Origin: an uncultured Eubacteriales bacterium | Lineage (GTDB): Bacteria > Bacillota > Clostridia > Oscillospirales > CAG-272 | Assembly: GCA_949451655.1 (NCBI GenBank) | Contig: CASTST010000008.1 | Location: forward strand, 1-35,968 | Direction: 5' to 3' | DNA length: 35,968 nucleotides | Part shown: positions 3,510 through 23,553 of the stretch, one piece after another | Layout of the letters: each line of letters begins with the position of its first letter | How positions within the stretch are numbered: position 1 is the first letter of the stretch | Notes under the pieces: model-generated | The model's database searches: none | Seen by the model: the letters and a program-made list of their open reading frames with translations, nothing else | What the model was told of the DNA's origin: nothing | Made by a program: the position numbers and the translations under genes

Positions 3510-3543
3510 TAAGATGTATTATAAACTTGGAGGTAAAGTCCAG

Positions 3544-5901
3544 ATGAAAAAGCTTGTATCATTGCTGGTTGTCGCAGCAATGCTTGTGACCGGATTGCTT
3601 GCTGTAATTCCGGGAACTGCAGCTGATCTTCCTGAGTCAGATTTATATACCCATGTAACTGGTGAGATTAGCAGCGACAAAAGTACATTGACTGTAACGA
3701 CCGAAATTGGGAATAACCCTGGTTTGTGGTGCTACAAATCCCGTTTGAGCTACAATGCAAGCGCATTAAAGCTTGTTTCTGTTGCAAACGGAAATGTGTG
3801 GTCAGACAACGAGTATATTCCTGCAAACATCAACAACAACCCTGTTACGTATTATGCACAGTATGCCGCAGCACTCAGCAACAATGCATCTAATGGTGTG
3901 ATTGCTGTGTATACATTTGAAATTCTTGATGCAAATGCAAACTTCAATGTTAACCTTTCCATCAATCCGAGAGAAGTTTTTGGCGTTGATGCAACTGGAA
4001 ACGGTGTATTCCATACTATGCAGATCATCAATGATTGCCCGCAAGAGCTTCCTTTCGATACCACTGCACTTGATGCTCTGGCTACCGACATTATGGAGCT
4101 TCCCGCTTACGATGGAATGAGCGATGAACAGATCGCAAAGATGTTGGCACTGTATAACAGTGTACATGCCCTTACTGGTAAATCAGAAACGTATTTCCAA
4201 AATACATATGCATCTGCTATTACCAAAATTGATGAGCTGTATGCTGCACATCAGTGGGCTGCAGTTGCAGTTGTGCTGGATGCACTGGGTGCAAGAGTAG
4301 AAGCACTGCCTGCATATGCTGAAATGACAGCAGAACAAGTTCAGGAAATGCTTGCTCTCCGTACTGAGATTGCTGCTATAACAGAAGAATCTCATAAAGC
4401 ATATTTGCAGGAAAAATTTGCTGATGCTTTGGCTCGTATGGATGCATCCTATGCAGAATATGTGCGTGTGGAAGGCTTGAATGTAATCGGCGCAAGAATC
4501 AACGCACTGCCTGCATATGCTGAAATGACTGAGGCGCAGGTTCAGGAAATGCTTGCTCTCACAGCAGATCTCGCAAAATTGTCTGCTGATGATCTTAACT
4601 ACATTAAGAATGCTTTTGCTGAAGGCTATGCAAGACTGGAAGCATCCAACGCTGCATATGCACATGCACAGGAGCTGAATGCAATCGGTGCAAGAATCAA
4701 TGCTCTGCCTGCATATGCTGAAATGACAGCAGAACAGATTCAGGAAATGCTTGCTCTCGTAGCAGCTGTTGAGGCTATGTCCGCAGAAGACGTAGCATAC
4801 ATTACTGCAAACTTCAAAGACGGCTACGACAGAATGAGCGCTTCTTACGCAAGATACACCCGCGTTCAAGAGTTGGATGCTATAGCAGCACGCATTACTG
4901 CACTGCCGGATGATTTCTATGCTATGACAGAAGCAAATATTGCTGAAATGCTTGCATTGACTGACATCATTGATGCAATCGAAGCTGAGGAAGATCAGCA
5001 GTACATGATGGACAATCATGAAAACGCTCTCAACAAGCTTGCAACACTTTATGTTACTTATGAAATTGAGCAGAGTGTAAAAGAACTTGCTGCTCGTATT
5101 GAGGCTCTTCCGAATGCCGATGTAATTACAGAAGAGTATCTGGATGAAGTTACCGAACTGAGCGCAATAGTTACCATAGGTGGTTTGGCTGTTCGCTTCC
5201 AGCAGGAAATTCCGCAGGCATATGAAAACCTTGTAAATGCATACTTTAAGCTTGTATATGGCGGCATGGATGCAGTTAATATGGATAAGGTTGCCGCTGT
5301 TGTAGATGCTGTAAACGCGTTGACAGAAGGACAGGATCAGGAAGTTCTTGATCTGCTGTATTCCCTCACTTTGATGGAAGAGGAAGACGCTGCTACTGCT
5401 GATTATATTGCATTGGCTCGTCCGGAAACTTTCGCAACATTGGTTGAAAAATATGTTGACATTCTCAGCAGAGAAGAAGTTGATATAGAAGCACTTGCTG
5501 CTTTGGCAGACAAGATTCTCGAACTTCCTGCATATGAGGATATGACAGCAGAAGATAAAGCAGCATTCGAGGAAATCATCACTGCTGTTGCAGGCATGTC
5601 TCCTGTGGAAATGTTCCAGTTTAAGACACTGCTTGCAGATGCATATGAAGCTTACCTTGCTTTGTATGAAGCATATGAAGCGGATAAGGGCAATGGCGAG
5701 GATAAGCCTCCTGTAACTGAGCCTGATGATACAACCGCAGCACCTGGTGCAGATACAACAACCGTACCTGCTCAGAACGGTGGCGATAAGAAACCCGTTC
5801 AGACTGGCGATAACATGACTTACATTATAATCGCAGCAGCAGTTGCAGCTGTAGCATGCGCAGCAGTTGTAGTTGTTCGCAAGAAGAAAGAGACTGTATA
5901 A
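3544..5901 (+). CDS. Cell-wall-anchored cohesin protein with tandem helical repeats
   Basis: 785 aa from the ATG at 3544, ten bases after GGAGG. The track start at 3514 lies upstream of the predicted transcript start. Order of parts: signal peptide (1 to about 27); a cohesin-like domain (about 34-164) with the hallmark pattern NPGLWCYKSRLSYNASALKL and a later GVIAVYTFEIL strand; about eight alpha-helical repeats of roughly 66 aa (about 177-714), the middle ones nearly identical around ALPAYAEMTAEQ; a Pro/Thr/Asp-rich linker; and a sorting signal PVQTGD (751-756), hydrophobic segment and RKKKETV tail. Sortase substrates have this layout, although the motif is not strict LPXTG. Role inferred: a stalk holding one cohesin at the surface to dock dockerin proteins such as those at 419, 11056 and 19574. 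The cohesin call rests on motif pattern only. It is monocistronic. Confidence 0.8.
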   Translation: MKKLVSLLVVAAMLVTGLLAVIPGTAADLPESDLYTHVTGEISSDKSTLTVTTEIGNNPGLWCYKSRLSYNASALKLVSVANGNVWSDNEYIPANINNNPVTYYAQYAAALSNNASNGVIAVYTFEILDANANFNVNLSINPREVFGVDATGNGVFHTMQIINDCPQELPFDTTALDALATDIMELPAYDGMSDEQIAKMLALYNSVHALTGKSETYFQNTYASAITKIDELYAAHQWAAVAVVLDALGARVEALPAYAEMTAEQVQEMLALRTEIAAITEESHKAYLQEKFADALARMDASYAEYVRVEGLNVIGARINALPAYAEMTEAQVQEMLALTADLAKLSADDLNYIKNAFAEGYARLEASNAAYAHAQELNAIGARINALPAYAEMTAEQIQEMLALVAAVEAMSAEDVAYITANFKDGYDRMSASYARYTRVQELDAIAARITALPDDFYAMTEANIAEMLALTDIIDAIEAEEDQQYMMDNHENALNKLATLYVTYEIEQSVKELAARIEALPNADVITEEYLDEVTELSAIVTIGGLAVRFQQEIPQAYENLVNAYFKLVYGGMDAVNMDKVAAVVDAVNALTEGQDQEVLDLLYSLTLMEEEDAATADYIALARPETFATLVEKYVDILSREEVDIEALAALADKILELPAYEDMTAEDKAAFEEIITAVAGMSPVEMFQFKTLLADAYEAYLALYEAYEADKGNGEDKPPVTEPDDTTAAPGADTTTVPAQNGGDKKPVQTGDNMTYIIIAAAVAAVACAAVVVVRKKKETV
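4288..4770 (+). repeat. Near-identical tandem units inside the cohesin gene
   Basis: Three units begin at 4288, 4489 and 4687 (201 and 198 bp apart) and share long runs such as ctgcctgcatatgctgaaat. They encode the best-conserved copies of the 66-aa helical repeat. The outer copies are diverged at DNA level, so the middle ones look recently duplicated or gene-converted. Confidence 0.85.
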
Positions 5902-10950: not shown

Positions 10951-11055
10951 AAAAGTATAGTTTGTCTTTGTAGTTTGTCCTCCTGAATCTGTTTTAGTGA
11001 ATAGAATTGTGTCCTTTCTGTGGGGCGCATATATAGGAAGGGAATGGAGATTATT

Positions 11056-13092
11056 ATGAAAAAATGGATTTGCGGTATGCTCATTGCATCTATGCTGCTT
11101 TCTGCCTTCATTGTAGCCGTGCCGGTTGGCGCGGCATCCTTTCTGCGTGGGGATGTAAACGGAGACGGAGAAGTGGACGCACTGGATGCATTTGAATTGG
11201 TACGATATATTGCAGATGTCACAGATTGGATCCAGTTTGACTTGGCAGATGTAGACGGAGACGGGGACGTAACTGCCTTTGACAGTTTTGAACTCAGGCG
11301 GCATCTTGCTGATATTATTGATTTATCCCAGACTTATCCGGTTCCTGATACAAATGTTGATCGCATCACCATTGCAGGGAACAATATCGGAATGTATACC
11401 ATTGTGGTGACGGATCCGGAAAATGCAAATGTGAGGTTTGCGGCTTCTGAATTGCAGAAATATGTAAAAGAAGCCTGCGGCAGAACCCTTGTCATTGCAG
11501 AGAGGGATTGCAATGCTCCCTATCAGATCGTATTGTGCGCGGATGACGGGTCCCGCCGTCTTGGCGATGACGGATTTTCTATAGCTGTTTCCGGCGGAAC
11601 GCTCACCATTATAGGCGGCGCTGCCAGAGGCGTTATGTATGGCGTGTATGAACTGCTGGAGGAATATTTCGGCTATCGCTTTTTAGGATATAACGATAAA
11701 GTGCTGTATACTGCCGATACGATAAATCTGCCGAACGGACTGCGGGATGAGCAGGTTCCGACAGTCAGATATCGCTGCGTTACCATTGATTCTTTTGCCA
11801 ACGATTATACATATTCTTCTGCAATCAAACGCAAGCTTAGCGGCTGTTCTGGACAGCCAAGCATGCTGCAGCCTGAATATGGATACGGTATAGAACGGCT
11901 GTTTTTGAATGCCCATTCTATGGATTATTTTGTGCCGGATGCGGCGGTCCCCTGTTTGTCTTTGGAGAGTACTTATGAAACCTGCCTTGCCAATATGAAG
12001 GCGCTTCTGGATCAGCGGATTGCTGCAGGCGGCATTGTTGGCAAAAGTATTACAGAAATATCCTGCTCCTATTCAGCGGAAGGGAAATTCTGTGCGTGCG
12101 CAGAGTGCAGTGCAACCTATCAGGCGGAAGGCAGTCAGGCAGGTGTACTGGTGCCCTTTGTAAATCGGATTGACAAGACGCTGCGTGAGGAATATCCGGG
12201 CATTCGCGTGATTACCAATGCATACGGCGATGTGCGTATTCCGCCTAAAAATGTAGTGCTGAACGATGAGGTGGCACTGCTGTATTGCTGGAATGGCTGT
12301 GCCAATCATCTCATAGGCAGCGGCGAATGTAGGGAAGGCGGCAACAGCCTGGGATACTCCAACACCAAAGAGGAAGCATACTACCTGGGATGGACGGAGC
12401 ATTGCTCTCAGATTTATGTGTGGTATTATCCTACCAACATATACTATCTGCTGTGCCCTCAGCCCAATCTTGTAAATCTGTATAACGATTTTATCTGGTT
12501 CATGGAGCACAAAGCCACAGGCTTTTATGTAGTAGGTACTACCGGAAGCTCATTTGAAGATCTGGATGCGTATCTGATTTCCAGACTGATCTGGGATGCC
12601 GGTATGACGGAAGAAGAATATATCCTTCGGATGGAGGAATATCTGCGGGCATATTACGGACCGGGATGGTCGTATATATATACGTATATACAAATGCTCA
12701 TAGAGGCGGGGGATGAAATGGGCTGCGTGCTCAACGATTTTGAACATCCCTTTGATATTTATTCCAAAGCATATTTTGCCAATCATTTTGATGAAATGCA
12801 GTCTCTGTTTGCACAGGCGTCTGCCGCATGCGAGACGGAGCAGGAGCGGGAAAATATCCGCCGCCTGTCTGTGCATATGCTGTTCCTTGGGTACAGCGCA
12901 ACCTATGAAAGCCGATATGTGCAAGGCACAGATGAACAGCGTGCCGCATATGCCGATGGATATCGGGCGTGGTATGATATGGTGCAGGAAAAGGAAATTC
13001 GAACCACCTATAATACCACAGGCATCGAGAACGCTTTTTCACTTGCTGTCAGTCCTATGCAGCTTGTATATGGGATAGACGGACAACGATAA
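11056..13092 (+). CDS. Secreted dockerin-DUF4838 protein, putative glycosidase
   Basis: 678 aa from the ATG at 11056, which has TGGAGA six bases upstream and opens a proper signal peptide (MKKWICGM...VGAAS). A dockerin directly follows cleavage (about 30-90), with loops DVNGDGEVDALD and DVDGDGDVTAFD. Residues about 95-225 form an alpha/beta module like the N-terminal domain of GH20 and alpha-glucuronidases (IVVTDPENANVRFAASELQKYV, ending YGVYELLEEYFGYRF). A DUF4838 region follows (about 230-500), recognised by CACAECSATYQ, the segment VPFVNRIDKTLREEYP and an AYGDVRIPP-like strand. DUF4838 is counted among TIM-barrel glycosidase relatives, but its substrate is not established. It heads an operon with a sugar epimerase, kinase and aldolase, hinting that it releases or trims a glycan feeding that pathway. 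N-terminal dockerins are less common than C-terminal ones. Confidence 0.85.
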   Translation: MKKWICGMLIASMLLSAFIVAVPVGAASFLRGDVNGDGEVDALDAFELVRYIADVTDWIQFDLADVDGDGDVTAFDSFELRRHLADIIDLSQTYPVPDTNVDRITIAGNNIGMYTIVVTDPENANVRFAASELQKYVKEACGRTLVIAERDCNAPYQIVLCADDGSRRLGDDGFSIAVSGGTLTIIGGAARGVMYGVYELLEEYFGYRFLGYNDKVLYTADTINLPNGLRDEQVPTVRYRCVTIDSFANDYTYSSAIKRKLSGCSGQPSMLQPEYGYGIERLFLNAHSMDYFVPDAAVPCLSLESTYETCLANMKALLDQRIAAGGIVGKSITEISCSYSAEGKFCACAECSATYQAEGSQAGVLVPFVNRIDKTLREEYPGIRVITNAYGDVRIPPKNVVLNDEVALLYCWNGCANHLIGSGECREGGNSLGYSNTKEEAYYLGWTEHCSQIYVWYYPTNIYYLLCPQPNLVNLYNDFIWFMEHKATGFYVVGTTGSSFEDLDAYLISRLIWDAGMTEEEYILRMEEYLRAYYGPGWSYIYTYIQMLIEAGDEMGCVLNDFEHPFDIYSKAYFANHFDEMQSLFAQASAACETEQERENIRRLSVHMLFLGYSATYESRYVQGTDEQRAAYADGYRAWYDMVQEKEIRTTYNTTGIENAFSLAVSPMQLVYGIDGQR

Positions 13093-13125: not shown

Positions 13126-13995
13126 ATGAAATTCGGAACACTGTATGCTTACTGGGTAAGCAACTGGGGCGCAGATTACTGCGAAATGGCAAGAAAGGCA
13201 AAGAAAGCCGGCTTTGACGTTATCGAAATCGGCGCCGGAGATTTACTTAAAATGAGCGATGCACAGCTTGCAGAGCTGCGCACTGTTGCAAAGGAGCTGG
13301 GACTGGAGATTTCTGCAAACCTTGGACCTCCTAAAGATAAGGATGTATCTTCCGCAGATCCGGACATCCGCCGTGCGGGTGTTCAGTTCCTCATAGATAT
13401 TATGCATCAGATGGTAAAAATCGACTGCAATACGCTGATCGGCGCGCTGTACAACTGCTGGCCTTATGATTTTAAGGATCTGGACAAGGACGCGCTGTGG
13501 GAACGTGCTGTAAAAGGTATGCAGGAAGTGGGAGACGAGGCGGATCGCCTTGGTATTACCATTTGTCTGGAAATTCTGAACCGGTTTGAAACCATCCTGC
13601 TTACAGACTGTGAAGAGGGCGTTCGTTTCTGTAAGGATGTAAACCGTGATTCTGTAAAACTGCTGCTGGATACCTTCCACATGAATATTGAGGAAGATGA
13701 CCTCCCTGCTGCAATCCGCCGTGCGGGAGATCTGCTTGCCCATGTACATGTAGGCGAAGGCAACCGGAAACTCCCCGGTATGGGACATCTGCCCTGGGCT
13801 GAAATCGGTCAGGCGCTGCGGGATATCGGATACGATGGAATGGTTGTTATGGAGCCGTTCATGAAAGCCGGCGGCACTGTGGGCAGCGACATCAAAGTAT
13901 GGCGTGATTTGTCCGGCGGTGCGGATGAAGCCGGTATGGATAAAATGATTGCAGATTCTCTTGTATTCCTGAAAAAACAGTTTGTCGGCGCATAA
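13126..13995 (+). CDS. Ketose 3-epimerase (D-allulose/D-tagatose 3-epimerase family)
   Basis: 289 aa, close to the usual family length. A metal-dependent TIM-barrel enzyme that epimerises ketoses at C3, for example fructose/allulose or tagatose/sorbose. The sequence tracks the clostridial D-psicose 3-epimerases: GALYNCWPYDF, CLEILNRFE, LLDTFHMNIEEDD, HVHVGEGNRKLPG and GTVGSDIKVWRDL. The metal and catalytic residues are present as E149, D182, H208 and E243. No signal peptide, so cytosolic. It is 33 bp after the DUF4838 gene and 21 bp before the kinase. Which ketose it handles cannot be read from sequence. D-allulose, tagatose and L-sugar relatives are all possible. Confidence 0.92.
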   Translation: MKFGTLYAYWVSNWGADYCEMARKAKKAGFDVIEIGAGDLLKMSDAQLAELRTVAKELGLEISANLGPPKDKDVSSADPDIRRAGVQFLIDIMHQMVKIDCNTLIGALYNCWPYDFKDLDKDALWERAVKGMQEVGDEADRLGITICLEILNRFETILLTDCEEGVRFCKDVNRDSVKLLLDTFHMNIEEDDLPAAIRRAGDLLAHVHVGEGNRKLPGMGHLPWAEIGQALRDIGYDGMVVMEPFMKAGGTVGSDIKVWRDLSGGADEAGMDKMIADSLVFLKKQFVGA

Positions 13996-14016
13996 AGAAG
14001 GAAAGGAAATATACCA

Positions 14017-14964
14017 ATGGCAGAAATTATGACTATGGGGGAAATCATCGTTGAAATCATGCGTGACGGTGTGGATAAACCCCTGGACAAAGCGGATGTG
14101 TTCCGCGGTCCCTATCCTTCCGGCGCTCCGGCAATCTTTATTGATACGGTAGCCCGTTTGGGACATAAAGCAGCAATCGTAGGCGGCGTTGGCGATGACG
14201 ACTTTGGAAAGTGCCTGCTGGATCGGCTGGAGGGAGACGGCGTGGACTGCTCCAGCGTGATCAAAAATGATAGAATTTCCACCGGCTGTGCTTTTGTTAC
14301 ATATTTTTCCGACGGAGAGCGAAAGTTTATTTTCCATATTGGAAACACTCCCGCTGTACTGGCGCCTGCGCCGGATGCAGAGAAGCTGGAAGGATTGAAA
14401 TTCTTCCATATCATGGGCTGCTCCCTCATGGCAGATATGGCTTTTGGTCAGCGGATTGTAGATACGATGCAGGCAGCGGCAAAGGCTGGCGCAAAGGTGT
14501 CTTTTGACCCGAATATCCGTCCGGAGTTGATGAAGGATCCAAAAGCGAAGGATCTCATCACAGCAGTGCTGGAGCAGACCAACGTATTCATGCCCGGCAA
14601 AAGCGAATTGCGCATGCTGTCTGGCTGCGATGATATTGAAGAGGCTGTACAGGCTTTGTTCCGGGACAGACCTGCCCTGGAGATTATCGCACTGAAAAAC
14701 GGTAAAAAGGGCTGTGTCATTTATACGAGAGATACCCGGTTCGCCTTTGGCGTGTATAAGGTTCCCGTATTGGATGCAACGGGTGCAGGCGACAGCTTTG
14801 ACGGCGCGTTCCTGTGCGCTCTTGCAGAAGGAAAATCCATAGAAGATGCAGCGAAAATGGCAACTGCAGCCGCTTCCCTGAATACGGCGGCATTCGGTCC
14901 TATGGAAGGGAAAATTTCCCGGGAAAACGTAGAAAAAATGATTGCGGACAATATTTTGGAATAA
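14017..14964 (+). CDS. PfkB-family carbohydrate kinase
   Basis: 315 aa, typical for ribokinase/PfkB enzymes, which phosphorylate sugars with ATP. The substrate lid region GAPAIFIDTVARLGHKAAIVG is near the start, SFDPNIRPEL lies mid-protein, and the ATP/anion-hole signature DATGAGDSFDGAF carries the catalytic base D259. The SFDPNIRP motif is usual in fructokinase- and 2-keto-3-deoxygluconate kinase-like members. In context it most likely phosphorylates the ketose made by the upstream epimerase (inference). AAGGAAAGGA precedes the ATG. It lies 21 bp after the epimerase and 35 bp before the aldolase. Confidence 0.93.
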   Translation: MAEIMTMGEIIVEIMRDGVDKPLDKADVFRGPYPSGAPAIFIDTVARLGHKAAIVGGVGDDDFGKCLLDRLEGDGVDCSSVIKNDRISTGCAFVTYFSDGERKFIFHIGNTPAVLAPAPDAEKLEGLKFFHIMGCSLMADMAFGQRIVDTMQAAAKAGAKVSFDPNIRPELMKDPKAKDLITAVLEQTNVFMPGKSELRMLSGCDDIEEAVQALFRDRPALEIIALKNGKKGCVIYTRDTRFAFGVYKVPVLDATGAGDSFDGAFLCALAEGKSIEDAAKMATAAASLNTAAFGPMEGKISRENVEKMIADNILE

Positions 14965-14999
14965 GCCCTGCCGCGGGACGAAGAAAGGATACAGACGTA

Positions 15000-15842
15000 A
15001 TGTATACAACAAGTAAAGAGATGATCAAAAAAGCCCGTGCAGGCGGATATGCAGTTCCTGCGTTCAATGCGGAAAATCTGGAAATGGTGCAGGCAATTGT
15101 TGCAGCAGCAAGCGAGCTGCGCTCTCCTGTTATGATTCAGACCACACCGACTACAGTAAAATATCTCACACTGCGTCAGGCAGTGGCGATGGTGCGTGCA
15201 GAGGGCGAAGCAGCAGACGTGCCGGTAGCGCTTCATCTGGATCACTGTGAAAGCTATGACGGTGTGCGCGATGCAGTGCAGGCTGGATATACCTCTGTCA
15301 TGATTGACGGTTCCAAATTGCCGTATGAAGAAAATATCGAAGTGACTCGTAAGGTTGTGGAAATGGCTGCTGCCAGAGGGGTTACTGTTGAGGCAGAACT
15401 TGGCACTGTGGGCGGAAAGGAAGACGGTCACAGCGCACAGATCGCCTATACGGATCCGGAGGAAGCATTGGATTTCTTTACCCGCACCGGCGTGGATATT
15501 TTTGCTGTGGCAATTGGTACAGCTCATGGTTTCTATAAGGGAGAACCGAAGCTGAATTTTGATCTTTTGGCGACACTGCGTGAAAAGATCGACGCACCGC
15601 TGGTGCTTCATGGCGGTTCCGGCATTCCGGATGAGATGATCCGCCGTACCATTGAGCTTGGTATCAACAAAGTAAACTTTGCAACAGAGTTGCGCGCTGC
15701 CGCTACCGCAGCAGTACGCAAGGCGTTGGAAAACGATTCTATAATCGACCCGAAAAAGTTTATGGGTCCGGCGAGAGAAGCAGTTATCGAGCTTTGCCGG
15801 CATAAAATCAAATTGTGCGGTTCTGATGGAAAAGCGGACTGA
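15000..15842 (+). CDS. Class II ketose-bisphosphate aldolase (FbaA/GatY/KbaY-like)
   Basis: 280 aa from the ATG at 15000, ten bases after AAAGGA. The 342-aa track version starts inside the kinase gene and is rejected. A zinc enzyme that splits phosphorylated ketoses into dihydroxyacetone phosphate and an aldehyde. Visible: PAFNAENLEMVQAIV at the start, the catalytic HLDHC (D81, H82), GYTSVMIDGS, the second zinc histidine in GTAHGFYKG (H176) and the third in LVLHGGSGIP (H204). Spacing matches the tagatose-bisphosphate aldolase branch, but fructose-, tagatose- and inositol-pathway (IolJ) enzymes are alike and cannot be separated by eye. Last gene of the operon. The terminator in repeat copy C follows about 330 bp on. 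Confidence 0.94.
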   Translation: MYTTSKEMIKKARAGGYAVPAFNAENLEMVQAIVAAASELRSPVMIQTTPTTVKYLTLRQAVAMVRAEGEAADVPVALHLDHCESYDGVRDAVQAGYTSVMIDGSKLPYEENIEVTRKVVEMAAARGVTVEAELGTVGGKEDGHSAQIAYTDPEEALDFFTRTGVDIFAVAIGTAHGFYKGEPKLNFDLLATLREKIDAPLVLHGGSGIPDEMIRRTIELGINKVNFATELRAAATAAVRKALENDSIIDPKKFMGPAREAVIELCRHKIKLCGSDGKAD

Positions 15843-16295: not shown

Positions 16296-16844
16296 ATGAA
16301 TGACAGTGGCATTAGAGATCTGTTTTGGACGCGCAGCGAACAGGCAATTCCGGCTTTGGCGGCAAAATACGGCAGACTGATTTATCAAATCGCTATGAAT
16401 ATACTGTCTGTCTCTCAGGATGCGGAAGAGTGTGAAAACGATACGTATCTGACTGTGTGGAACACAGTTCCACCTGCAACTCCTGTTTCCATGCAGGCGT
16501 ATTCAGCCAAAATTGTCCGCTATATCGCCTGTGATAAGCTGGATTATAATATGGCAGAAAAGCGCGGCGGCGGAGCAGAGATGTCTATTACGGAACTGGA
16601 AGAATGTATTCCCGCATCGGATGTATCCTTGGATGATACAGAACTATCTGAAGCAATTGATGCATTTCTTGCGGGGCTGGACGCACAAAATAAGGCTTTA
16701 TTTGTAGGAAAGTATTTTATGTCGGCATCGGTGAAGGAATTGGCACATATGTCCGGGCTTACTGTTACGTGTGTAACAACCCGGCTTTCCCGCCTGCGGG
16801 AAAAACTCCGGCAGGTGCTGCATGAAAGGGGGATAAACAAATGA
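16296..16844 (+). CDS. ECF-type RNA polymerase sigma factor
   Basis: 182 aa. Region 2 is visible as AAKYGRLIYQIAMNILSVSQDAEECENDTYLTVWNTVPP, matching the clostridial ECF consensus (DAEEC-x-ND-x-YL-x-VWN). Region 4 is a C-terminal helix-turn-helix, VKELAHMSGLTVTCVTTRLSRLREKLRQVL, which reads the -35 element. The stop overlaps the start of the next gene in ATGA, so the two are translationally coupled, as is usual for sigma/anti-sigma pairs. Ribosome site AAAGGAT, about six bases before the ATG. Its regulon is unknown. The operon is flanked by direct copies of a 150-bp repeat. Confidence 0.93.
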   Translation: MNDSGIRDLFWTRSEQAIPALAAKYGRLIYQIAMNILSVSQDAEECENDTYLTVWNTVPPATPVSMQAYSAKIVRYIACDKLDYNMAEKRGGGAEMSITELEECIPASDVSLDDTELSEAIDAFLAGLDAQNKALFVGKYFMSASVKELAHMSGLTVTCVTTRLSRLREKLRQVLHERGINK

Positions 16845-19330
16845 AGGGAAGGGATTTGTATAAGGCAATCGGATCTGTATCGGAACAGCATGTAGAAGAT
16901 ACGTTCGCGTATTTTCGTACGCGGAAAAAAATGAGATTTATTAAAATCGGTTCGGTTGCTGCTGCGCTTTGCTTTGTGGTTACAGGCACGGTTCTGGTGG
17001 CGCTGCATAAAAACACTGTGTGCATAGAACCGGGGGGGCTGTCTGTATTGGTAGATGAAAATGGATTTTTAATCCGGGACGGAGAACTTTTAAAATACAC
17101 CGGTGCAGAAACGGATGTGGTAATTCCTGAAACAGTAGACACTATTGCAGATAATGCTTTTGCGGATACCAAGGATCTTAGCACCGTTACACTGACTGCC
17201 AATGTAAAGCATGTAGGGTATGATGCGTTTAACGGCGAAAAAGGGTTCCGGCTGCTTTTATCAGCAGACAACCGTTACTTTACCGATACGGGAGACAGCA
17301 TCATTTCCACAGACGGTACCAATTTGCTTCAGTATATTGGCGGTGAGCGGGAAAGCTATATCATTCCGTATGGAGTAAAACAAATCAGCGCATTTGCCTT
17401 TTACGAAGCCAAAATTGATGAAATAACCTTCCCGAGGGGATTGGAGTATATCGGAAAAGGTGCGTTTGCCGGATGCAGTATGCAGGCGATTCATCTGCCG
17501 GATTCTGTGGAATATGTGGGTGTGCAGGCATTTTCCCAGTGTATTTATGCAGTGGATGGGACTGTGCCCCAGACGGCTGAGATCGGTGAGGATGCGTTCT
17601 TCCGTGTGCCGTTTTACACGTCCATGCTTGCAGGGCATCCGTGTCCAGGCGAGGATATTCAGCGGGGTACAATAAAACCCAGTGAAGCCTTTGTAAAAAG
17701 CGCACATTTGCAGGAGATCAACGATGCGGTTCTGGAGTTTATCCAAACTGGATATATGCGCAATTATGATGTGGATCGGTCTGAAGCAGGGATCCGTTTC
17801 CCTGATTTTAAACAAAAGATAGATTTTAAAAGCGCAGCGTTTGTTGACGGAGCATGGGGAGATCTGATCGAATGCAGAGCGAAAATTTATGTAACAGATC
17901 AACAGTATGTGAGCATTGGTTTGGCTTGTGAAAATCCATATGATTGCAGCAGTTGGAGTGATGCAGAATGGAAAATCTGCCGCGCAGAATTTTATCCAGA
18001 CACATATGAGGTTCAAAAAGATGATATAGCGCTTGTATTTTTCCGTGATTCTAAAACTCTCAACTATGTATTGCAGGAAATACGGTATAATGGCAGTAAA
18101 TACAATACAGAGATTGACCGGGCTGCATATTCTCCGGAAATATGCAAACGCGGTCTCCAAAAGGTGACTGACGGGCTATATGTTCTGGCGTGGGATACAT
18201 ATGAAAACACGTTCAATTGGAAACGCAGCTATGAATCAAATTCTCATACACTGACAGTAATAGATTTACGCAGCGGAGAATTGAAGCTTACCCACTATTT
18301 GGATGAGATTGAAGGATATTCGTTCAAAATATTCCCCATGGAAGGAATGCAGGTTGACGGACAGTATAGGCTTATGCTGACAGACTACAATTATTTATTC
18401 ATTGATTGGATAAAATATCTGGCAGGAGAAGGCGGCGTCACATTATATGAGTTTGAGACGATTACAATTGACGATGTTGCGGATATGGGCAAGCTGCAAG
18501 TCAGGGGATCAAGAGAATATATGAGTTATGAGCGCGAAATCAATATGCTGTGCGCTTTTATAACAAAGAATACAACTGCCCTGGAGGAATATTCCGATGT
18601 TCCGGCAGGAACTTATGATTTATACAAAACGCTGGAATTTGGAGAATATACGATCACGCAGATTCTCTCTGGATCGGATTTATATTATCAAGGAAATATC
18701 AATGTATTTCTTGATGTAGAGATAGTGAAAAGCGATATTCCTGAAATCCCTGTAGGGAAACATTGTTTTGTTGTAGGATCCGGACCGGGCGGAGATTATG
18801 TTATGGACAAAGATAGAAATACGCATTTTATTTCTGTACATGCTGATTTAAAGGATTTGTATATATTTGTGTCTTTGCTTGGAAGTAGAATGATTCCCGA
18901 TGTGAACGCATTAACAGAAGAAACGCTGCGTCCTTATAGGGAAGCTGCAATTGTATACATCATTGACCATAAATCAACGGATATGAGTATAAAAATTGAG
19001 GATGTGATCGCCTATGCTAGGGAGTTATTTGACCTAACTGTGACGGAAAAGGATATCAGAAGTATCAATATGTTTTCATATTATATGGAAGGAGATCGCA
19101 TTTACGCGGGCGGACACGGCGGAAATGTAGTCGGAATGGATATTATTGAGCAGATAGAATGGGGTGATACCGTTACTGTCACAGTCCGGTTTTATGCGGA
19201 AGGATCTTATACTATCCCTGCAAAGGATATAAAATATACCCTGACAAGAACGCCGGACGGGTTGGCATTCCTTACTCCGTCTGAAGTGATTCAGGATTAT
19301 GGCAGACCAATTTGGAGCTACGCAGTGTGA
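16841..19330 (+). CDS. Membrane anti-sigma-like protein with BspA-type leucine-rich repeats
   Basis: 829 aa, far longer than ordinary anti-sigma factors. Residues 1-32 are a charged cytosolic segment (LYKAIGSVSEQHVEDTFAYF) of the kind found on clostridial partners of ECF sigma factors. One membrane helix spans about 33-55. The outer part begins with BspA/LRR_5 repeats (about 60-270): VVIPETVDTIADNAFADTKDL, EITFPRGLEYIGKGAFAGC and IHLPDSVEYVGVQAFSQC. A 550-residue C-terminal region follows that I do not recognise, with few cysteines and no obvious enzyme motif. Inferred role: hold the sigma factor at the membrane and release it on an outside signal. The pairing rests on overlap and topology, not on a named anti-sigma domain. 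Base composition after 17,700 is more AT-rich than the first third. Confidence 0.75.
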   Translation: MKGRDLYKAIGSVSEQHVEDTFAYFRTRKKMRFIKIGSVAAALCFVVTGTVLVALHKNTVCIEPGGLSVLVDENGFLIRDGELLKYTGAETDVVIPETVDTIADNAFADTKDLSTVTLTANVKHVGYDAFNGEKGFRLLLSADNRYFTDTGDSIISTDGTNLLQYIGGERESYIIPYGVKQISAFAFYEAKIDEITFPRGLEYIGKGAFAGCSMQAIHLPDSVEYVGVQAFSQCIYAVDGTVPQTAEIGEDAFFRVPFYTSMLAGHPCPGEDIQRGTIKPSEAFVKSAHLQEINDAVLEFIQTGYMRNYDVDRSEAGIRFPDFKQKIDFKSAAFVDGAWGDLIECRAKIYVTDQQYVSIGLACENPYDCSSWSDAEWKICRAEFYPDTYEVQKDDIALVFFRDSKTLNYVLQEIRYNGSKYNTEIDRAAYSPEICKRGLQKVTDGLYVLAWDTYENTFNWKRSYESNSHTLTVIDLRSGELKLTHYLDEIEGYSFKIFPMEGMQVDGQYRLMLTDYNYLFIDWIKYLAGEGGVTLYEFETITIDDVADMGKLQVRGSREYMSYEREINMLCAFITKNTTALEEYSDVPAGTYDLYKTLEFGEYTITQILSGSDLYYQGNINVFLDVEIVKSDIPEIPVGKHCFVVGSGPGGDYVMDKDRNTHFISVHADLKDLYIFVSLLGSRMIPDVNALTEETLRPYREAAIVYIIDHKSTDMSIKIEDVIAYARELFDLTVTEKDIRSINMFSYYMEGDRIYAGGHGGNVVGMDIIEQIEWGDTVTVTVRFYAEGSYTIPAKDIKYTLTRTPDGLAFLTPSEVIQDYGRPIWSYAV

Positions 19331-19540: not shown

Positions 19541-19573
19541 AAAACACCGCCCTGTAATAGGGCGGTGTTTTTT
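19541..19573. terminator. Bidirectional intrinsic terminator
   Basis: aaaacaccgccct and agggcggtgtttt pair fully around gtaat, with T-runs on both strands. It lies between the anti-sigma gene and the convergent alkaline phosphatase gene and can end both transcripts. Confidence 0.95.
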
Positions 19574-21193
19574 CTATCCTCCAAAAGAGGATGCGCCGAA
19601 TACGGCTGCAATATATTTTGCAATGTCCGTGTTTTCTACAAGCGTGCTGTGGAATATTTCCGTTCCCCAGCCCATGGCACACACCGGAACAGGTACGCCG
19701 GTATGTTCTCCGTCAGACGTCCATGTGTAACTGCCATCCTCTAAAACAGTCAGCCCTCCGGTTTCATGGTCGGCGGTGACAATTACGGCAACATCAGGAT
19801 GACATGCGGCTGTAAGCGCCGCATAAGCCACGCATTCATTGAGCCGGTACACTGTGCGTACCGTTTCATTGTAGTCCAATCTGGTGGCGTATTTGTCGAT
19901 CATAGCTTCTTCTGCCATCAGGAAAAAACCACTGTTGTTGACGGATGCCGCATGAATCGCTTTTTCAAACTGTTCCGGCAGTGTGTCGTCGTCATAATTA
20001 CACCAGAGAAAATCGCATGCAAGTTCACTTTCTGCCAGCGCTTCCTGCTGCTGCTGAATTACGCTGTAATCGAACCGGTAATTGTGATGTGTTAAAAATC
20101 CGTTGGGCGTAGCTCCGGTAATCCGGTCGGATGAGAGGATTGCGGTGGTTCGCCCGGAAAGAGAGGCAAGCTCACGCACATTTTGAACGGAGCGCAGAGA
20201 ATCGGCGTTACCGCCTAAAAATGTGTCCGGACGCATGCCAAGGACACCGTTGCGGGTTTTCCATCCGGTAGCGAGAGCAGTTGCGGACGCAGCAGAGTCT
20301 GTTACCCCGCCAAGCTGATTTGCTGTAGCGGCAGAACCGATTGCAGGAAACTGCTTCGCCCAGAATGTGTCAATTGTTTCTGCCTGGAGCGGTGTGCTTC
20401 CGGTTTCCGGTTCCTGTACATATGCTTTTGAATCACATGCCATGCGAATGTGGTTTTCCCCCATTCCGTCGCCGATGATCAGAATTACGCTGGAAGCGGG
20501 CTGCGGCTGGTATTCCCGGATGAGCTTGTCTCCGGGGACAGTGATTGCAGCATGAGCGTTCCAGGCGTCACTGCTGCTCAGCAGTGTATGCGTCAGATAC
20601 CCCACGCCGCCGCCTACCATAAAGTCTTTTCCAAGGAGAACAATTTTAGATTTTTCCGTATAAATCATATAGGAAAGGGGATCGAACTGAAGTTCACATG
20701 CACTTTCCTTTCGGTTGGTGTCTCCGATTAGAATTTCAAATTCTGTTTCAGCTTTGTCGTCTGTGACAATGGGAATGTGAGCATCACAGTTCATTTCTAA
20801 AAAGTCTTTTAATTGGCCGGCAGCCCAAAGGGCAAAAGTTTTATCCTCTTTCGGAATCACGATCTGATACTGATCCAATTCGATTCCGTTCAGTGTGACA
20901 GAAGCATATCGGGTGCCGGGCTTGCTGATGCCTGCAAGATATTGAAGCAGGACATCTGCATCGGTTTGAGTGATTGCCCCGTCAAAGCTTACATCCGCAT
21001 TTTCTTTGGAAATGGGGGTGAATCTGCCGGACAAATACCGATGCAGCGTATATGCATCGCAAACGTCCACCACACCGTCTCCATTTACATCGCCAATCAG
21101 ATAATCCGAATGCAGGGCGCATCCTGTCCACAGAAAGAGTATGGAAAATAGAATTGCTGCAAGCAGCAGCGGTATGCGTTTTTTTGTCATCAT
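19574..21193 (-). CDS. Alkaline phosphatase lipoprotein with N-terminal dockerin
   Basis: 539 aa. The lipobox LWTGC places the lipidated cysteine at 25, so the protein is predicted tethered to the membrane. A dockerin starts within ten residues (about 33-90), with loops DVNGDGVVDVCD and the weaker DVSFDGAITQTD. Residues about 95-220 resemble the alpha/beta module of the DUF4838 protein (LNGIELDQYQIVIP, EFEILIGDTNR). The alkaline phosphatase domain (about 233-535) has ILIIGDGMGENHIR, the nucleophile in VTDSAASATALATGWKT (S300), VTADHETGG and a C-terminal EHTGVPVPVCAMG, so the metal ligands look intact. It should free phosphate from esters outside the cell. No good ribosome site is seen before the ATG. 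It lies 21 bp after the carboxypeptidase gene and is probably cotranscribed. Lipid anchor plus dockerin in one protein is odd. Confidence 0.88.
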   Translation of the reverse strand: MMTKKRIPLLLAAILFSILFLWTGCALHSDYLIGDVNGDGVVDVCDAYTLHRYLSGRFTPISKENADVSFDGAITQTDADVLLQYLAGISKPGTRYASVTLNGIELDQYQIVIPKEDKTFALWAAGQLKDFLEMNCDAHIPIVTDDKAETEFEILIGDTNRKESACELQFDPLSYMIYTEKSKIVLLGKDFMVGGGVGYLTHTLLSSSDAWNAHAAITVPGDKLIREYQPQPASSVILIIGDGMGENHIRMACDSKAYVQEPETGSTPLQAETIDTFWAKQFPAIGSAATANQLGGVTDSAASATALATGWKTRNGVLGMRPDTFLGGNADSLRSVQNVRELASLSGRTTAILSSDRITGATPNGFLTHHNYRFDYSVIQQQQEALAESELACDFLWCNYDDDTLPEQFEKAIHAASVNNSGFFLMAEEAMIDKYATRLDYNETVRTVYRLNECVAYAALTAACHPDVAVIVTADHETGGLTVLEDGSYTWTSDGEHTGVPVPVCAMGWGTEIFHSTLVENTDIAKYIAAVFGASSFGG

Positions 21194-21214: not shown

Positions 21215-22525
21215 TTAAAACCGCATGCGTTTTTTCCCTTTCTTCTGGCGCAGAATTGCTGTGCCAAAAATATAAATCAGTGTAAAAATGACTGCGGCTA
21301 TCAATGTAATGATGAAAAAGCGGCTTTTGGTAAATTGCTCGATTTTGTACAGCCCGTACAGCAGATCGTTTCTGGTTACATCTGTTGTGGCAACAAGCTG
21401 GGATGTTCCCAGTATATTTCCCTGATAAATTGCAGTGACACTGCCTACAACTTGTCCTTCATGTACCGGCGCCTGCAATTCCTTGCTGTTTGTACTGTAG
21501 CTGATTTCAATTTCTTCTTCCACATTCACATCAGCGGGGAGATATACCCGCAGGGTGTCGGTGGAAACCAGCGTTACATAGTCTACCGCTGTAGATAGTG
21601 TTACGGGAATTTCACAAACGATTTGTTCGGGGGACAGGACCTGTGTATATGTGAAAGAATCAAATGCCCATTTCAGCAGATTGGTTATATTGATGTAAGA
21701 ATAAACCTGTCCGTTTATGGTGTCGGCGCCCATTACCACTGCGATATATGTGAGTTCCCCGTCGGTAGCAGCAGTTACGACGCAGTGTCCGCCTTGGGGG
21801 GTGGAACCTGCGTTCATGCCCCGTGCCTGATCGTTATAGTAATTTTTATCGTAATAAACGGAAAGCAAACAGTTTCGGTTGTGCAGTGTGCGTGCGGCGG
21901 AAGTATTGGTTGCAGGCATGGAATATCGTACAGAGGAGGTGGCTTCCATAAATAAGTCGAGCCCGTAGGCATATTTTGCAATCTGCGCCGTATCCTCGGC
22001 GGTGGTATACATGTTTTCATCGTGCATGCCGGTGGGGTTGGTGTAATGGGTATGATGGGCGCCAAGCTCCTTGGCTTTTGTGTTCATCAGCGTTACAAAT
22101 TCTTCTGTGGATCCGGAAACGGTGTGCGCCAGCACATAAGCAGCATCGTTTGCACCATTGACGAGCAGAGCACGGATCATACTGTCTATTGTAACGATTT
22201 CGCCGGCAGCAAGCCCGATATTGTTGCCGGATACTGCCGACAGCATACTTGACGTTACGGTGATGTTTTCGTCCAAGCGATCAGAAAGATTTTCTATGGC
22301 AAGGATACCCGTCATAATTTTTACGGTAGAGGTTGGATAGACCTGTTCTTCTGCATTTTGGGCGAAAACAGCTTTGTTGTTTTCCAAATTATATAGATAG
22401 ATGCCTTTTGCATTGGAAACAGTGGGATCCTCTAACGCTGCAGAGGGAACGGACAGTCCAATGCTTCCCATCGTTAGCAGAATCACTGAAATAAGGACTA
22501 ATGCAATTTTATTCTTCTTTTTCAC
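21215..22525 (-). CDS. D-alanyl-D-alanine carboxypeptidase (S11 family) with variant third motif
   Basis: 436 aa from a GTG at 22525, ten bases after AAAGGGGAT. A signal peptide or N-anchor leads (KIALVLISVILLTMGSIG). The penicillin-binding fold shows the nucleophile motif STVK in VYPTSTVKIMTG and SGN in LSAVSGNNIGLAAGE. The third motif, normally K-T/S-G, reads NAG in RGMNAGSTPQGG. The C-terminus has a beta domain and a membrane helix (FFIITLIAAVIFTLIYIF) followed by a basic tail. These enzymes trim the last D-Ala from peptidoglycan stems outside the membrane. With the altered motif, activity is less certain than the fold. It lies 42 bp after ribF and before the phosphatase gene, in an apparent operon. 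Confidence 0.9.
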   Translation of the reverse strand: MKKKNKIALVLISVILLTMGSIGLSVPSAALEDPTVSNAKGIYLYNLENNKAVFAQNAEEQVYPTSTVKIMTGILAIENLSDRLDENITVTSSMLSAVSGNNIGLAAGEIVTIDSMIRALLVNGANDAAYVLAHTVSGSTEEFVTLMNTKAKELGAHHTHYTNPTGMHDENMYTTAEDTAQIAKYAYGLDLFMEATSSVRYSMPATNTSAARTLHNRNCLLSVYYDKNYYNDQARGMNAGSTPQGGHCVVTAATDGELTYIAVVMGADTINGQVYSYINITNLLKWAFDSFTYTQVLSPEQIVCEIPVTLSTAVDYVTLVSTDTLRVYLPADVNVEEEIEISYSTNSKELQAPVHEGQVVGSVTAIYQGNILGTSQLVATTDVTRNDLLYGLYKIEQFTKSRFFIITLIAAVIFTLIYIFGTAILRQKKGKKRMRF

Positions 22526-22567: not shown

Positions 22568-23518
22568 TCAACCGCCGTAAGTTGCTTCAAAATAAGCGAT
22601 TGTTTTTTGTATATCCTGCTGCACCTGATTTTTCAGCTGCTGCACATTTTCAAATCGGATTTCATCCCGCAGCCGGTGATAGAATTCCACTTGGATTTCC
22701 TTTCCGTATAAAAGCCCGTTGTAGTCAATAATATGTGTCTCACAGTTTACCGGAACATTTCCGTCTGTGACTGTTGGACGGACACCGATGTTGGCAACGC
22801 CGAGGAAGATATCACCGCCTACGTTGCAGGTGCAGGCATAGATTCCGCCCCGCGGAATGATATGCCCTTTTGGAAAGCTTTGATTGATGGTGGGAATTCC
22901 AATGGTTCTGCCAAACTGCTTACCCCGTACCACGGGGAAGCAGATAGAGAAGGGATGCCCCAGCAGTTCGGAGGCAGATTCCATATTTCCGTCTAATATA
23001 CAGCCGCGGATCGCGCTGGACGAAACGATTCTGTTCTGACACAAAACCGGATTTTCCACAATAACCGGAATATTCACTCCGGCAAGATATTTGCGCAGTG
23101 CGTCTGCGTCCCCTGTGCCGCCTTTGCCAAACCGGAAATTGAACCCGCAGACAACGCTTCCTGCACGGATTTGATCGGGCAGATACTGCATTGCAAATAC
23201 AGCGGGCGTCATAGAGCGAATGGTTTCGAAATCTTCCAGAATGGCGTAATCCAAACCGCAGGCTGCAAACAGCCGCAGCTTGGACTGGATGTCTGTAAGA
23301 GCAGGCGCTGGATTTACCGCTTTTGCCAAGCTGGTAAAGGACCATGCGGCGCTGACCGGGCAGCCTGCCTCTTTGGCGCGGGTAAACAGCCTTTGATGTC
23401 CCCTGTGCACCCCATCAAAATTCCCCAGCGCTACGGCAGCGCCGGGAGGCAGTGTGTCCACCTTTTCATATGCAGGCGCGCCAGTCGCCGGATCCGTTGA
23501 TAGTTTATAAATGATCAC
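22568..23518 (-). CDS. ribF: Bifunctional riboflavin kinase/FAD synthetase
   Basis: 316 aa from a GTG at 23518, which has a perfect AGGAGG eight bases upstream. The ATG at 23542 in the track has no ribosome site. The enzyme makes FMN from riboflavin and then FAD. The N-terminal adenylyltransferase domain has VALGNFDGVHRGHQ, CGFNFRFGKGGTGD and VSSSAIR. The C-terminal kinase domain has GRTIGIPTIN and the NCETHIIDYN segment with its catalytic glutamate. Length and order are standard. It lies 35 bp after ireB, and no FMN riboswitch is present, as expected inside an operon. Confidence 0.96.
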   Translation of the reverse strand: MIIYKLSTDPATGAPAYEKVDTLPPGAAVALGNFDGVHRGHQRLFTRAKEAGCPVSAAWSFTSLAKAVNPAPALTDIQSKLRLFAACGLDYAILEDFETIRSMTPAVFAMQYLPDQIRAGSVVCGFNFRFGKGGTGDADALRKYLAGVNIPVIVENPVLCQNRIVSSSAIRGCILDGNMESASELLGHPFSICFPVVRGKQFGRTIGIPTINQSFPKGHIIPRGGIYACTCNVGGDIFLGVANIGVRPTVTDGNVPVNCETHIIDYNGLLYGKEIQVEFYHRLRDEIRFENVQQLKNQVQQDIQKTIAYFEATYGG

Positions 23519-23553
23519 GGACTGTTCCTCCTGTCGGATCATTTCTCAGGGGA

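Follow-up and report, generated by a model that had tools for sequence, protein, structure and literature searches.

Architecture of the protein

Dockerin enzymes are commonly viewed as being released from the cell and then captured. The question raised by this locus is why a phosphatase of a gut bacterium should carry both a dockerin and the signal for a lipid anchor. The window (the whole stretch of DNA analysed, 35,968 nucleotides) encodes this protein of 539 aa on the minus strand; the plus strand of the same interval contains stops. Full-length orthologues were found in seven other species at 72-94% identity and in three more at 43-45%. The protein starts with MMTKKRIPLLLAAILFSILFLWTGC-ALHSDYLI-GDVNGDG, and its modules, in order from the N- to the C-terminus, are listed below the gene.

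19574..21193, minus strand: lipoprotein-dockerin-phosphatase gene (open reading frame and translation; full-length orthologues)
21122..21193, minus strand: signal peptide, residues 1-24 (MMTKKRIPLLLAAILFSILFLWTG) (sequence; dN/dS 0.35)
21119..21121, minus strand: lipobox Cys25 (LWTG^C) (invariant in 13/13 clade members)
20936..21094, minus strand: type I dockerin, residues 34-86 (Pfam, 54.8 bits; conserved calcium ligands)
20498..20917, minus strand: accessory alpha/beta domain, residues 93-232, with a GH67/GH115/GH20-type N-terminal fold (AlphaFold2, Foldseek, hhalign)
19577..20497, minus strand: alkaline phosphatase domain, residues 233-539 (Pfam, PDB phmmer 3a52, Foldseek 2w5v)
20294..20296, minus strand: nucleophile Ser300 (invariant in 87 relatives; aligns with TDSAASATALATG of 3a52)
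19883..19885, minus strand: Thr437, where E. coli alkaline phosphatase (EcAP) has the zinc ligand His331 (T, E or S throughout the 13 clade members)

The reading frame and Pfam bore out the anatomy described in the initial annotation, a lipobox Cys25 followed after eight residues by a dockerin and then by a phosphatase, and placed it on the minus strand. Its nucleophile, S300, also stood. The phosphatase does not directly succeed the dockerin, because residues 93-232 form a separate domain. Conservation across species excludes that the lipobox-dockerin-phosphatase architecture arose by chance.

Distribution of the two anchors

In 395 genomes surveyed from the family of the source bacterium, 87 relatives of the phosphatase were found. 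These were classed by their lipobox and dockerin motifs, both with a script and by visual inspection; Pfam confirmed the dockerins of odd cases, and one 5'-cut entry (L188) was re-read as a lipoprotein. A lipobox without a dockerin was present in 58 relatives, both in 11, a dockerin with an ordinary signal peptide in 13, and neither in 2, while 3 were cut by contig ends. The search for other lipoprotein-dockerin-phosphatases proposed in the initial annotation thus found the double architecture in 11 species of one genus, down to 43% identity. In the tree, these 11 proteins share a single clade with L030 and L031, two lipoproteins that lack a dockerin. Because L030 and L031 keep the lipid signal all the same, the dockerin is dispensable in some species.

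The hydrophobic stretch of the signal peptide (...ILFLWTGC) ends in Cys25 and forms a lipobox. This cysteine is fixed in all 13 clade members while the remaining signal peptide drifts, and no AXA cleavage site was seen by eye downstream of it in these 13 proteins. A lipoprotein signal peptidase (lsp) gene was found in the same genome. Cys25 of the phosphatase is thus predicted to be lipidated. The lipid anchor is ancestral, since a lipobox was present in 58 of the 60 dockerin-less relatives. The data indicate that the lipid is the constant anchor of the phosphatase family and the dockerin its optional part. For this reason, we regard the dockerin as an accessory tether and not as the main anchor.

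The initial annotation stated that dockerin enzymes are normally released and captured, so that a membrane tether would be redundant unless it linked the membrane to the wall-anchored cohesin. At the level of sequence, its double-anchor reading of the phosphatase stands. Its view that the two anchors do not usually go together agrees with the dockerin phosphatases outside the genus-specific clade, none of which (0/13) keeps a lipobox. The association between dockerin and lipobox loss gave a Fisher p of 3e-7, which is a naive value; a phylogenetically independent pairs test was not significant (p ~0.25, 6 pairs), and the tree requires about six changes of dockerin state across the family. The mutual exclusion of lipobox and dockerin therefore appears as a pattern and not as a proven rule. 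An order-wide sample of 394 genomes added few relatives and no match of the clade type beyond those known.

In the genome itself, a lipobox precedes the dockerin at 1 of 22 dockerin places, which is the phosphatase alone. A convincing lipobox was found in none of 78 further dockerin proteins of three related genomes; for G016, the clade phosphatase was assessed on its own. Among approximately 100 dockerin proteins of the four genomes, the phosphatase is the sole lipoprotein. A few other dockerin proteins seemed at first to have a lipobox, but inspection by eye rejected them: the cysteine lay within the hydrophobic core with an ordinary cleavage site after it, or the protein had no signal peptide. 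An apparent dockerin open frame of 27,536 aa in a relative (G025:C18; L214, L260-L263) was an artefact of masked Ns.

The closest comparisons are found within the family. The secreted paralogue group (G000:C89, L032-L034, L133-L138) shares with the clade a dockerin, accessory domain and phosphatase in the same order, but has an ordinary signal peptide and lacks both the lipobox and the linkage to a carboxypeptidase gene. Its member G000:C89:276-1823 (L001) is the second dockerin-phosphatase of the genome that holds the window; it is approximately 40% identical and has an ordinary signal peptide. The dockerin-less lipoprotein phosphatases (L035, L040, L042-L046 and most of L142-L195) resemble the clade in lipobox and phosphatase domain; unlike the clade, they have no dockerin and most retain the His331 ligand. 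Their accessory domain was seen directly in L035 and is implied elsewhere by matches from about residue 95. Two long proteins, L041 (1100 aa) and L194 (1325 aa), combine the phosphatase with a C-terminal dockerin instead and have no lipobox.

In Ruminococcus flavefaciens FD-1, 19 proteins carry the dockerin directly behind the signal peptide, as the phosphatase does (PMC2930009). Neither phosphatase nor lipid anchoring was found in the text of that paper (PMC2930009). No published description of a lipid-anchored dockerin enzyme was found in the open-access literature. Each part is already known; what appears to be new is the combination of lipobox and dockerin. The claim that a phosphatase lies outside the usual dockerin cargo held against the dockerin list of PMC2930009, but dockerin-phosphatases recur in the order and the secreted C89 protein is encoded in the same genome as the clade phosphatase. 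What stands out is the presence of both anchors in one protein across a genus, compared with a dockerin without lipid in the other dockerin members of the family examined. Lipid only, dockerin only and both occur within one genus and form a natural comparison set, which could be used to test cohesin-dockerin pairing outside cellulosomes.

Integrity of the dockerin

Residues 34-86 matched Dockerin_1 of Pfam at 54.8 bits (cut-off 22.9), and the phosphatase dockerin was the top scorer of the 22 dockerins in the genome (59.3 bits). As in type I dockerins, there are two EF-hand-like repeats with D-x-N/S-x-D-G loops. Every one of the 11 orthologues with a dockerin has Asp at positions 1, 5 and 12 of each loop; in loop 2 (DVSFDGAITQTD), position 3 is S, T or N and position 9 is T or N. 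The initial annotation had called loop 2 weak and had named lost calcium-loop residues as a sign of a non-functional dockerin. Neither concern was upheld, since the ligand positions are conserved and the ligands intact in all 11 species.

Among the eight closest species, the phosphatase had the lowest dN/dS of the main domains (0.050), followed by the dockerin (0.077) and the accessory domain (0.119), and the signal peptide reached 0.35; these values are rough, because dS is high and near saturation. They indicate that the dockerin is constrained nearly as strongly as the catalytic domain. The dockerins of the clade are more alike among themselves than to most other dockerins, so a single homologous insertion in the clade is likely. 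The phosphatase dockerin is predicted to bind a cohesin.

Phosphatase active site

The catalytic domain matched Alk_phosphatase of Pfam at 126 bits. Its closest solved relatives were 3a52 (PDB phmmer) and 2w5v (Foldseek, E 1.6e-17), and S300 falls on the catalytic serine when the protein is aligned to solved alkaline phosphatases. D242, S300, T362, R373, E428, D475 and H476 are invariant in the 87 relatives and supply the nucleophile, the arginine and the Zn2 and Mg ligands. The Zn1 site (Asp327, His331 and His412 in EcAP) is incomplete: D433 and H497 are present, and Thr437 replaces His331, a ligand of zinc 1. This position holds T, E or S in all 13 clade members. Of 64 relatives that belong to neither dockerin clade of the genus, 60 have His here. 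The histidine is mostly lost in the secreted paralogue clade too.

Compared with the PhoA alkaline phosphatases (E. coli AP, TAB5 AP 2w5v, Shewanella AP 3a52), the clade has the same fold and nucleophilic serine and equivalents of Arg166, Asp369/His370, Asp327 and His412. It differs in the change of His331 to Thr, Glu or Ser, in the extra N-terminal modules and in the lipid anchor. Its sequence features indicate that the enzyme is related to the two-zinc PhoA enzymes but is no standard member. The replaced zinc ligand puts phosphatase activity in doubt. The enzyme is nevertheless under strong selection, because no other catalytic residue varies and the dN/dS of its catalytic domain is the lowest of the main domains. 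An engineered H331Q mutant of the E. coli enzyme (PDB 1hjk) is available for comparison with the natural change, and the natural loss in the clade offers a test of the variation tolerated in the first metal site.

Accessory domain

The AlphaFold2 model of residues 93-232 had a pLDDT of 91.9. Foldseek matched it to 1mqp, 4c90 and 8pxt (E < 1e-3). The resemblance is to the alpha/beta domain at the N-terminus of alpha-glucuronidases (GH67, GH115) and of GH20, GH84 and GH138 glycosidases. In hhalign, the stretch matched the DUF4838 N-domain (97.6%, E 3.6e-12); Pfam run on the stretch alone gave no family above threshold. These results identify a separate domain common to DUF4838 proteins and GH67/GH115/GH20/GH84 enzymes. 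One such protein is encoded in the window.

11020..13092, plus strand: DUF4838 protein with a dockerin and an ordinary signal peptide (Pfam, hhalign)

Like the phosphatase, it has an N-terminal dockerin followed by a GH67N/GH20b-like domain, so the dockerin and accessory-domain half is a module set common within the genus. It differs in its glycosidase-like body and has no lipobox. Beside its gene, at 13126-15842, lie genes for a psicose 3-epimerase (above cut-off), a PfkB sugar kinase (closest to tagatose kinase, with a score below cut-off) and a class II aldolase, a possible operon for ketohexose use. These three genes are on the other strand from the phosphatase, and no link to it was found.

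Candidate cohesins and a proposed role of the two anchors

The genome contains six cohesin matches and three sortases. One cohesin protein lies in the window.

3514..5901, plus strand: possible partner, a cohesin protein whose C-terminus is of the sortase type (QTGD + helix + KKK) (Cohesin 23-27 bits, borderline)

Sortase-type ends occur on two cohesin proteins, this one and that of C79. A third protein (G000:C29:5146-6102, L017) has 319 aa, a single cohesin and a C-terminal transmembrane helix, and its type was found in 12 of the 17 genomes of the genus, several or many of which are incomplete. The cohesin proteins of C8 (3514-5901), C79 and C29 each have their own C-terminal anchor. None of the six cohesin matches lies in a many-cohesin protein, and a primary scaffoldin as in a cellulosome was not found; at 88.9% completeness of the genome, it may have been missed. 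Because the dockerin sits eight residues from the membrane, the C29 protein fits better than the wall cohesin at 3514-5901 and is the best candidate partner.

With slightly more confidence than doubt, we believe that the protein is a lipid-anchored ecto-phosphatase on the outer face of the membrane, which has acquired a dockerin at its N-terminus and keeps it by selection as a second, calcium-dependent tether. After processing by Lsp, no more than about eight residues would separate the dockerin from the membrane, and the membrane-proximal transmembrane cohesin (C29, contig 29) would there be sterically best placed to hold the enzyme. Contact with the cohesin could cluster the phosphatase with envelope or glycan-processing partners. 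The phosphatase would then act where membrane and wall meet. Its targets may be phosphorylated glycans of the envelope or of the diet, and the glycosidase-type accessory domain may aid glycan binding. An envelope or phospho-glycan substrate is presumed from these features.

The two anchors could instead act in sequence, a partly shed lipoprotein (after proteolysis near the cysteine or incomplete lipidation) being recaptured by wall-anchored cohesins. We consider this unlikely, even though the genome has wall-type cohesin proteins (3514-5901, C79) with three sortases and the dockerin-only paralogue shows that a secreted form is viable. A dockerin adjoining the cysteine would easily be removed or damaged by shaving, and the spacer of residues 25-33 is fairly conserved (69% identity). 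A membrane socket, in which the lipid-anchored dockerin recruits a cohesin-bearing protein, with the phosphatase in a secondary role or almost inactive, would suit the clade-wide loss of the zinc-ligand histidine and the membrane-proximal dockerin. The invariance of all other catalytic residues, the low catalytic dN/dS and the fact that the C8, C79 and C29 cohesin proteins are already anchored make this quite improbable. It is very improbable that Cys25 is accidental and the protein a plain secreted dockerin enzyme. Trp at -3 is atypical for a lipobox, and every other dockerin protein examined is without a convincing one; against this, the cysteine is fixed despite a fast-evolving signal peptide, and the dockerin-less family is almost wholly lipoprotein. 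Least probable of all is a non-binding dockerin left as a vestige of domain shuffling, which its absence from L030 and L031 inside the clade might suggest and which was rejected on its dN/dS and on calcium loops intact across 11 species.

Gene neighbourhood

The genes upstream and the end of the presumed transcript are as follows.

21215..22525, minus strand: PBP5-type D-Ala-D-Ala carboxypeptidase, immediately upstream (Pfam Peptidase_S11 + PBP5_C)
22568..23542, minus strand: ribF, next gene upstream (Pfam + NCBIfam; conserved in 8 loci)
19541..19571, minus strand: 13-pair hairpin directly past the stop codon (AAAACACCGCCCT-ATTAC-AGGGCGGTGTTTT, read from the sequence)

The gap between the carboxypeptidase and phosphatase genes is 21-36 nt in all 11 dockerin-bearing orthologous loci, and the carboxypeptidase gene is also upstream of the dockerin-less L030. 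The linkage was found at none of the other phosphatase loci (0/76), some of which are short-flanked, so that absence there is weaker evidence. The linkage to this cell-wall carboxypeptidase gene is operon-like. More speculatively, and with low probability, a lipid-anchored dockerin that acts as a membrane-side socket for cohesin proteins, coupled to a phosphatase whose metal site has been rebuilt and to a cell-wall carboxypeptidase gene, could mark a distinct class of envelope enzyme. If this is true, cohesin-dockerin pairing would here organise the cell envelope and not serve to break down plant fibre.

The hairpin is a probable transcript end; it was absent from the pattern-scan listing. Further along, a large LRR_5 protein whose N-terminal stretch resembles a membrane anchor (16841-19330) is encoded directly after an ECF-type sigma factor gene (16296-16844), and the two are possibly a sigma/anti-sigma sensor pair.
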